Source: Xylogone sp. PMI_703 (Eukaryota; Ascomycota; Leotiomycetes). Taken from it: 64,000 bases of DNA. The stretch lies in the NCBI GenBank assembly GCA_021399445.1, contig JAJTUQ010000003.1, positions 2,542,001-2,606,000 on the forward strand, in the 5' to 3' direction. Within the stretch, counting starts at the first letter, position 1. Each line of letters opens with the position of its first letter. The position numbers and the translations under genes are program-made. Shown one piece after another: positions 8,230-10,041 of the stretch. The notes beneath the pieces are model-generated. The model made no database searches. It was not told the DNA's origin and saw only the letters and a list, made by a program, of their open reading frames with translations.

Positions 8230-9025
8230 TTATTCAACCTTATCGTCAAAGTTCTCGCCGGCAACTAGATCCGGGATGTCATCGTCATCATCATCCTTCT
8301 TGTCCTCTCCTGCCTCTGCCTTCTGCATCGACTGGTAGCTCTCAGCCAACTTTCGGAGTGACGCCAAGGAGTCGGGGCCGAGTTGGTTAAGAATGCCTGG
8401 AACAAGCTCTGTAAGTTCCTTGTCTTCACCGTTACCGTAGATGGCGAAGGTGTTTGCTGGAACGGCAGCGTGCACTGTAAAACATGCCATTAGCATATAC
8501 CCAGGTTAAGGAAACGAAAAATGCCTAAGCTGCGGGGTAGCTGTCTTGCTGGCGCCTGACCTTTTGGTGCAGAGAAATGAATGACATTTCCATCTGACTT
8601 AAACATATTGACCTCCTCTATCGCCTGGATTGGCTGGACGTTGAGCTTCTTAAGAGTGGTCTGTAATTTCTTGTCGTCCATACCAGCGCTCTTGTGGACC
8701 TTCTTGACCTTTCTTCTTGGTGTACCCTTTCCACTATTTATCATTGTTAGTTTCGTGTCATGCCCCCAAAGCTTCACCAAACTTCATGAATGTATCTAAC
8801 GGTATTCGCGAGTTATAAGGACAGAAATACATACCCTGCGCATCATCAGTTAGCTACTATCCCAGGGAGTCGAGGCACTTGAAGTGCGGTTTGCCGGATT
8901 TGTAAACCACCATAATAATATGGGGTATAACATCTCCGTATAAAATTCGCACATTGCGCAAATGAGAAATTTCACATACCAATTCGCACCGACTGCTGCA
9001 TCTTCTTCAACTTTTCCATATCCAT
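8230..9025 (-). CDS. EGD1: Nascent polypeptide-associated complex subunit beta
   Basis: NAC-beta binds emerging nascent chains at the ribosome exit tunnel as a heterodimer with NAC-alpha. Minus-strand exons: 8980..9025, 8835 (one nucleotide), 8561..8733 and 8230..8474, giving 154 residues. Exon 1 encodes [15 protein letters not shown], then the ribosome-binding block [14 protein letters not shown], the NAC domain, and an acidic tail [11 protein letters not shown]. Joining exon 1 directly to 8733 shifts the frame. Inserting the single G at 8835, which is flanked by GCGCAG and GTATGT, restores the conserved I-G-G-K-G. Both flanking introns (8836-8979 and 8734-8834) have GTATGT donors and CTAAC branch sites. 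A weaker GTGAAA donor at 8975 would give an inserted Ile instead. Gene identity is certain; the one-nucleotide exon is inferred. Confidence 0.95.
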
Positions 9026-10041
9026 GACTGCGGTTTTACGACCTTGCGCCGAGGATCGTGGGAAATATGAAGTGGGGGAAAAGATGGATTCTAGAAGACT
9101 TTTCTACACATTAGCAGTCGCCCAATGTGTTATTTAGAGGTTTAGCGGCCAATAATGCCATTGCACAAGACTGTACGTACCAATATTGAGGGGAGGCTTG
9201 AGATCGTGGTTTCGCTCTCCAGATGTGGTCGTGAGGATTAGGTCGGCTTTGTGTGCGCCAAGACTTTCAACAGCTAAGCGAATTTGAGCTTCCTGTGAAG
9301 ACGAAGATGATCTCAACCCCACTATCTGTGATGATGATGAGCAATATGCTCGTCACAGTTTGGTTCAGATACAGACATACTAAAGCTTATGGGTCATTGC
9401 TTATCCTATTACTGTCTGCATAAGCAACTAATACTGTAATATTATATTTTGCCTGGTTTGCCGTCTTCTCAGTGATTATTATGTCATAGCCCTTAGCTCA
9501 TGTCTCGACCACTAGGATAGGACTGTTATCCTCGGGCGATATATTAATAAAAGAATACCAAGTCCATAGGATTACTATTCTCTTGTTTTTATATTTCATA
9601 TTTCCACGTATTGTTCATAATGGAAATTCGTTTTTGTTCGGATCTCAAATCTATTTTTCGGGCGATTTGCTGCGTAATTTGCTATTTTCCGATTCGCGAA
9701 TTCTGCAGTAGACGTATTGACATTGATATTGGGCTGGACATCTTGAAAGCCGTATCTAGTCATATCTTGATAGTAGGGTAAGGAGAGCCTACATTAAGAG
9801 CTATTTCATCTTAATCAAAGATGGCCATCATTCCAGGCAAGGCGCCCTAATAAACATTATCGAACCGCTCTAGCTCATATATTAATCAAGAGCGAGAGAC
9901 AGTGATCTGTCGTCTGGAGCCGCATTGGGTGAGTTTGGATCCCAGCTGTACTCCAGTATGCAATACATCCGCCATAAGTCGTTCTAATATACATACATTT
10001 ATACATACACGCCAACCGCCTTGAGAAACCAGTGTCGGTCA
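9026..10041. other. Intergenic, EGD1 promoter and CBP4 3' flank
   Basis: A 62-codon minus-strand frame at 9134-9322 has no recognisable motif or splice partner. I see no RNA gene. The stretch near 9550-9700 is AT-rich. Confidence 0.5.

Follow-up and report, generated by a model that had tools for sequence, protein, structure and literature searches.

A gene on the minus strand at positions 9025–8230 of the window (the whole 64,000-nucleotide (nt) stretch of Xylogone sp. PMI_703 DNA that we analysed) encodes NAC-beta (EGD1/BTF3). Read with an exon of one nucleotide, its coding sequence specifies 154 amino acids, and residues 1–151 align with human BTF3 chains, the segment VRIGGKGT included. 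The closest homologue among the matches listed is P0001, a JGI record that is 94% identical to this product, and the best named homologues among those matches belong to Leotiomycetes. A search of the genome (50.1 Mb in 25 contigs) for the NAC domain returned two loci, the NAC-beta gene and L003 (G000:C19:3134177-3134266), which lies some 0.58 Mb from it on the same contig and which we presume to be NAC-alpha. The parts of the NAC-beta gene, with the kind of evidence for each in brackets, are as follows.

8980..9025, minus strand: coding exon 1, with its ATG at 9025 (BTF3 match)
8836..8979, minus strand: intron A, 144 nt, GTATGT...GCGCAG (sequence reading)
8849..8853, minus strand: intron A branch site, CTAAC, its last base 13 nt upstream of the final base of the AG (sequence reading)
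8835, minus strand: candidate single-nucleotide exon G, second base of the Gly17 codon (anatomy, frame and comparative evidence)
8734..8834, minus strand: intron B, 101 nt, GTATGT...AATAG (sequence reading)
8746..8750, minus strand: intron B branch site, CTAAC, its last base 12 nt upstream of the final base of the AG (sequence reading)
8561..8733, minus strand: coding exon that follows the single nucleotide, to ...APK (sequence and frame)
8475..8560, minus strand: intron C, 86 nt, GTCAGG...TACAG, with a CTAAT branch site 14 nt before the end of the AG (sequence reading)
8230..8474, minus strand: last coding exon, stop codon included (sequence reading)

The donor of intron C, GTCAGG, is a weak one.

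One base between two introns

Exon 1 ends in ATT-G at 8980 (...GCGAATTG), directly before the GTATGT donor of intron A that starts at 8979, and the next long exon opens with TGGAAAGG at 8733 (T-GGA-AAG), after an AATAG that ends at 8734. Joining these two exons directly breaks the frame, as the preliminary description had stated, and leads to a stop after 53 codons, at 8620–8618, upstream of intron C. Between them lies GCGCAG-G-GTATGT, in which GCGCAG extends to 8836, the G is position 8835 and a second GTATGT donor starts at 8834, so that a lone base separates an acceptor AG from a donor GT. Inclusion of G8835 gives the codons ATT GGT GGA AAG (I-G-G-K), and the frame of the conserved protein requires it; the I-G-G-K-G that this base had been proposed to restore is borne out by the alignment of the 154-residue product with human BTF3 through VRIGGKGT. 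Both flanking introns have a donor and a branch site (GTATGT twice, CTAAC twice), and the CTAAC elements, previously placed 12–14 nt before their acceptors, are found at 13 nt and 12 nt. The exon ends, donors, acceptors and the position of G8835 were all reproduced as first described. The base is also read by all 85 of the listed transcript-like homologues (defined below), although these may come from other species and a splice to a non-AG acceptor would produce the same mRNA.

The frame into GKGTPRRK is also preserved by seven joins that use a single GT-AG intron. Five of them cut into exon 1, and the other two use a GTGAAA donor at 8975, one producing a long insert and the other a single additional isoleucine. 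With the outer splice sites held fixed, five micro-exons of 1–60 nt are compatible with the frame, and G8835 is the only one among them that combines a branch site, a full consensus donor and IGGKGT. Of the canonical GT-AG solutions found, the one-nucleotide exon alone yields the conserved IGGKGT, which lends support to the original proposal of such an exon. Two related architectures were rejected on anatomical grounds: a stwintron, because nothing interrupts the donor, branch site or acceptor of intron B, and a zero-length recursive splice site, because one G stands between the AG and GTATGT.

The middle site combines elements that rarely coincide by chance. The pattern CTAAC-N5-20-AGGGTATGT, which was picked after the site had been seen, has a chance level of about 1.2e-5 per 246-nt strand stretch. 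Across both strands of the 50.1 Mb genome it occurs at five sites, the same number as for the reversed control pattern, indicating that AG-G-GT sites are not a common class in this genome. A looser pattern, CTRAY-N5-20-YAGGGTRNGT, has two matches in the window, both at the G8835 site, which puts its frequency at no more than about 0.002 per 246 nt, and CTAA-N6-21-AGGGTATGT is observed once in the window, with 0.04 expected. Genome-wide, there is no enrichment of the zero-base form of the middle motif (12 versus 29 in the control) or of the form with A, C or T as the middle base (12 versus 17). The four further CTAAC...AGGGTATGT sites in the genome (L004, L005, L007 and L008) were inspected by eye, and the overall number equals that expected by chance.

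An ab initio intron scan of the window gave no excess of candidates (31 versus 28 in the reversed control) and was uninformative, so we relied instead on a whole-genome intron pattern. GTATGT-N25-50-CTAAC-N4-16-CAG occurs 289 times in the genome (136 + 153), compared with 108 (59 + 49) in the reversed control, and GTATGT-CTAAC-CAG is real intron grammar in Xylogone sp. PMI_703. No Rfam match was found in 8700–9050 at E values up to 10, nor any in the window at the gathering level, and the predicted RNA structure near G8835 is ordinary (fold z-score of 0.25).

The conserved IGGKGT could also be reached through one splice, if a 246-nt intron ended at a non-AG acceptor (AATA|GTGGAAAGG; AATA|GTGG). 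The mature mRNA and protein would then be the same as those made with the one-nucleotide exon. An RT-PCR product containing GCGAATTGGTGGAAAGG, put forward in the preliminary description as a check, is not decisive: because the AATA|GTGG acceptor yields the same mRNA, finding GCGAATTGGTGGAAAGG in cDNA supports the one-nucleotide exon and does not prove it. We nevertheless regard such an intron as very unlikely. Its non-canonical acceptor would be used one base before a perfect AG that is equipped with a CTAAC branch site, and the middle site, at about 1.2e-5 by chance, would be left unaccounted for.

The junction in homologous proteins

Relatives were compared through their proteins, and the middle AG-G-GT is known from the DNA of one genome; four scans of contig collections for NAC-beta-encoding contigs (two of genome contigs and two of viral contigs) found no relative. 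Three protein searches, of which the best 120 of 4,768, of 3,955 and of 4,115 matches were taken, list 263 distinct homologues. We split these by source into 85 without an NCBI genome source, hereafter ‘transcript-like’ (jgi, lgn, ena, merc and one insect transcriptome-type UniRef entry), and 178 with an NCBI source, hereafter ‘genome-derived’. The first label reflects the source together with mostly short contigs (<3.4 kb where given, with the longer exceptions P0200 at 5.2 kb and P0241 at 15.5 kb) and is not an RNA annotation.

Every one of the 85 listed transcript-like records, the 94%-identical P0001 among them, has the two glycines without an insert (83 GGKGT, 1 GGKGA and 1 GGRGT). Among the 178 listed genome-derived models, by contrast, 33 are exact at the junction that corresponds to 8980/8733 and 145 are wrong or odd there; 41 pass under a looser rule, which admits GGKGT even where foreign letters precede it. 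The next intron (HFxxPK^VHA) is correct in 173 of the same 178 models, and when the looser rule is applied, all 132 models that fail at just one of the two junctions fail at the first (exact test p = 4e-40). The fault therefore lies at the first junction and not in general model quality. All nine NCBI-source records among the listed matches for which a jgi, lgn or ena source is given as well belong to the 33 exact models. IGGKGT, IGIGKGT and IGTGKGT are the readings of three Aspergillus proteins whose remaining sequence is 99% identical.

The errors among the listed models amount to a systematic misannotation across Pezizomycotina and follow a pattern. In 50 of the 145 failing models listed, a single additional residue separates the two glycines (IGxGKGT), the residue being I in 18, T in 17, D in 9, H in 2, E in 2, A in 1 and K in 1. 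The I, T or D found in 44 of these 50 would be as expected of predictors that slip by +4, from GTNNGT to a GT at its fifth base (GTNN|GT): ATTG + GTAT, GTAC or GTGA + TGGA reads I-G-I/T/D-G. This slip implies that exon 1 ends in phase 1 and that the next exon starts at the third base of a codon, one base short, the same situation that is seen in Xylogone sp. PMI_703. The remaining 95 failing models differ in other ways (different inserts, shortening or a changed first exon), and the residue before GKGT in them is S in 15, R in 14, G in 14 and I in 13. S or R at this place is what AG-T-GGA or AG-R-GGN would yield, and G and I are also common; residues compatible with CTAAC precede S/R-GKGT in 19 of 29 models, a weak signal.

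These protein data bear on a second single-intron join, a 242-nt intron from the +4 donor GTGAAA (8975) to 8734, which would give VRIGIGKGT with an extra isoleucine. It is canonical GT-AG, in frame and the mildest of the seven frame-keeping single-intron joins, and IGIGKGT is also read in 18 listed public models of relatives. The same join, from 8976 to 8733, had been named at the outset as the outcome that would speak against the one-nucleotide exon; those 18 models use it, yet its insert appears in none of the 85 listed transcript-like homologues, P0001 again included. The GTGAAA donor is moreover weak next to GTATGT, and the middle CTAAC-AG-G-GTATGT would have no explanation, so that we judge this join highly improbable. 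An assembly or sequencing error, with one G missing at the 8734/8733 boundary of an ordinary phase-1 intron, is scarcely credible: one extra G (TAGGTGG) would indeed make an ordinary in-frame intron, but the same deficit recurs in 145 of the 178 listed models, from independent genomes, with the next intron right in 173, and the middle motif would become a coincidence.

Splicing order, precedents and age

We consider it very likely, from the anatomy of the locus and its protein comparisons, that G8835 is a constitutive single-nucleotide exon of the NAC-beta gene and that its flanking introns are removed sequentially. Only one base separates the acceptor AG from the donor that follows, presumably too little for U2AF/U2 and U1 to occupy both sites together, so the splice sites would be matched by intron definition and the two introns excised in succession. 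In filamentous fungi, according to work on stwintrons, splice sites are paired across the intron (PMC5639578). If intron A were removed first, the intermediate would read ATTG+G|GTATGT (ATTG-G-GTATGTATT); if intron B were removed first, it would read GCGCAG|G+TGGAAAGG; either order would end in an identical mRNA. Skipping of G8835 would instead give a 53-codon frameshifted product, and its stop upstream of intron C could trigger nonsense-mediated decay. That skipping might serve to control NAC-beta levels is speculation.

Single-nucleotide exons, which the preliminary description called almost unreported, are indeed rare, but there are precedents in APC11, VPS55, CYP621A and Candida snoRNA host transcripts. 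In Arabidopsis APC11, the exon was demonstrated by altering the base and finding the altered base in cDNA. As at G8835, one base lies between AG and GT and is needed for the frame, and sequential removal of the two introns is proposed there as here, whereas APC11 is a different gene, from a plant, with A as the base and a putative branch point 44 nt upstream (PMC4674806, as the exon is described there). The 1-nt microexon of plant VPS55 is, by the account of its report, conserved across a wide clade and overlooked in reference annotations, as the NAC-beta exon appears to be; VPS55 is a plant gene whose exon was followed by RNA-seq and RT-PCR, whereas the NAC-beta exon is predicted from sequence (PMC8831610).

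Two of the precedents are fungal. The one-nucleotide exon of Fusarium CYP621A, reported in 2026, shares with that of NAC-beta the AG-G-GT arrangement, a G at the second position of a conserved glycine codon, a phase 1 to phase 2 mismatch and wrong public models; in that report it is described in Fusarium only and in a rarely expressed P450 (PMC12940212), whereas NAC-beta is a conserved ribosome factor in which the deficit appears in most Pezizomycotina classes. Candida snoRNA host transcripts contain single-base exons in which, as in NAC-beta, a single G lies between two fungal introns and two splicing orders have one outcome, but the host transcript is non-coding and its introns carry snoRNAs, whereas the NAC-beta introns have no Rfam match. 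Fungal stwintrons of type [D1,2], as characterized in the sources cited, likewise involve two consecutive reactions at one intron position, with splice sites that pair by intron definition (PMC5639578; PMC12403724; PMC6616335); in NAC-beta, unlike in these, the elements of intron B are uninterrupted and its GTATGT donor is complete before splicing. A search of the open-licence literature, with subscription papers outside its scope, found no report of a single-nucleotide exon in NAC-beta, BTF3 or EGD1, and the NAC-beta exon would be a new, probably old, case of a known phenomenon.

The proportion of listed genome-derived models that are exact at the junction varies by class, where the class of each model is one that we presumed from its genus name.

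Leotiomycetes: 1 of 21 exact
Eurotiomycetes: 3 of 46 exact
Lecanoromycetes with Candelariomycetes: 2 of 19 exact
Orbiliomycetes: 0 of 3 exact
Sordariomycetes: 13 of 59 exact
Dothideomycetes: 12 of 28 exact
Pezizomycetes: 2 of 2 exact

The one-base deficit is probably common to most Pezizomycotina classes without being universal, and this breadth suggests that the arrangement is old. We think it reasonably likely, judging from these model errors, that the exon predates the split between Orbiliomycetes and leotiomyceta, having arisen in an early Pezizomycotina ancestor, and that it was retained in most lineages of Leotio-, Eurotio-, Lecanoro-, Sordario- and Orbiliomycetes and in part of those of Dothideomycetes. 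If so, no single-nucleotide exon known in fungi would be older or more widely distributed, and it would lie in a gene whose transcripts all cells have to splice at a high rate; the early stop produced by skipping could tune NAC-beta levels.

If the one-nucleotide exon is real, an exon of minimal size has been spliced dependably by fungal spliceosomes through long spans of evolution, and NAC-beta offers a clean system in which to study intron definition with an overlapping acceptor and donor and the order of intron removal. Most public NAC-beta models of filamentous ascomycetes (145 of the 178 listed) would then carry a wrong N-terminus just before GKGTPRRK, which predictors that do not allow 1-nt exons cannot repair.

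Some lineages may have an ordinary intron here, either ancestrally or by loss, as suggested by the 33 of 178 models that are exact, for example in Pezizomycetes, Dothideomycetes and Sordariomycetes. Some lichen models, with E or K inserted or with YLGGKGT or YIGGKGT, do not fit the +4 slip, which suggests an in-phase acceptor in them. Five of the listed Xylariales-type models (P0235, P0246, P0250, P0254 and P0259) have GGKGT in their genome-derived sequence, as would be expected if these fungi lacked the odd junction.
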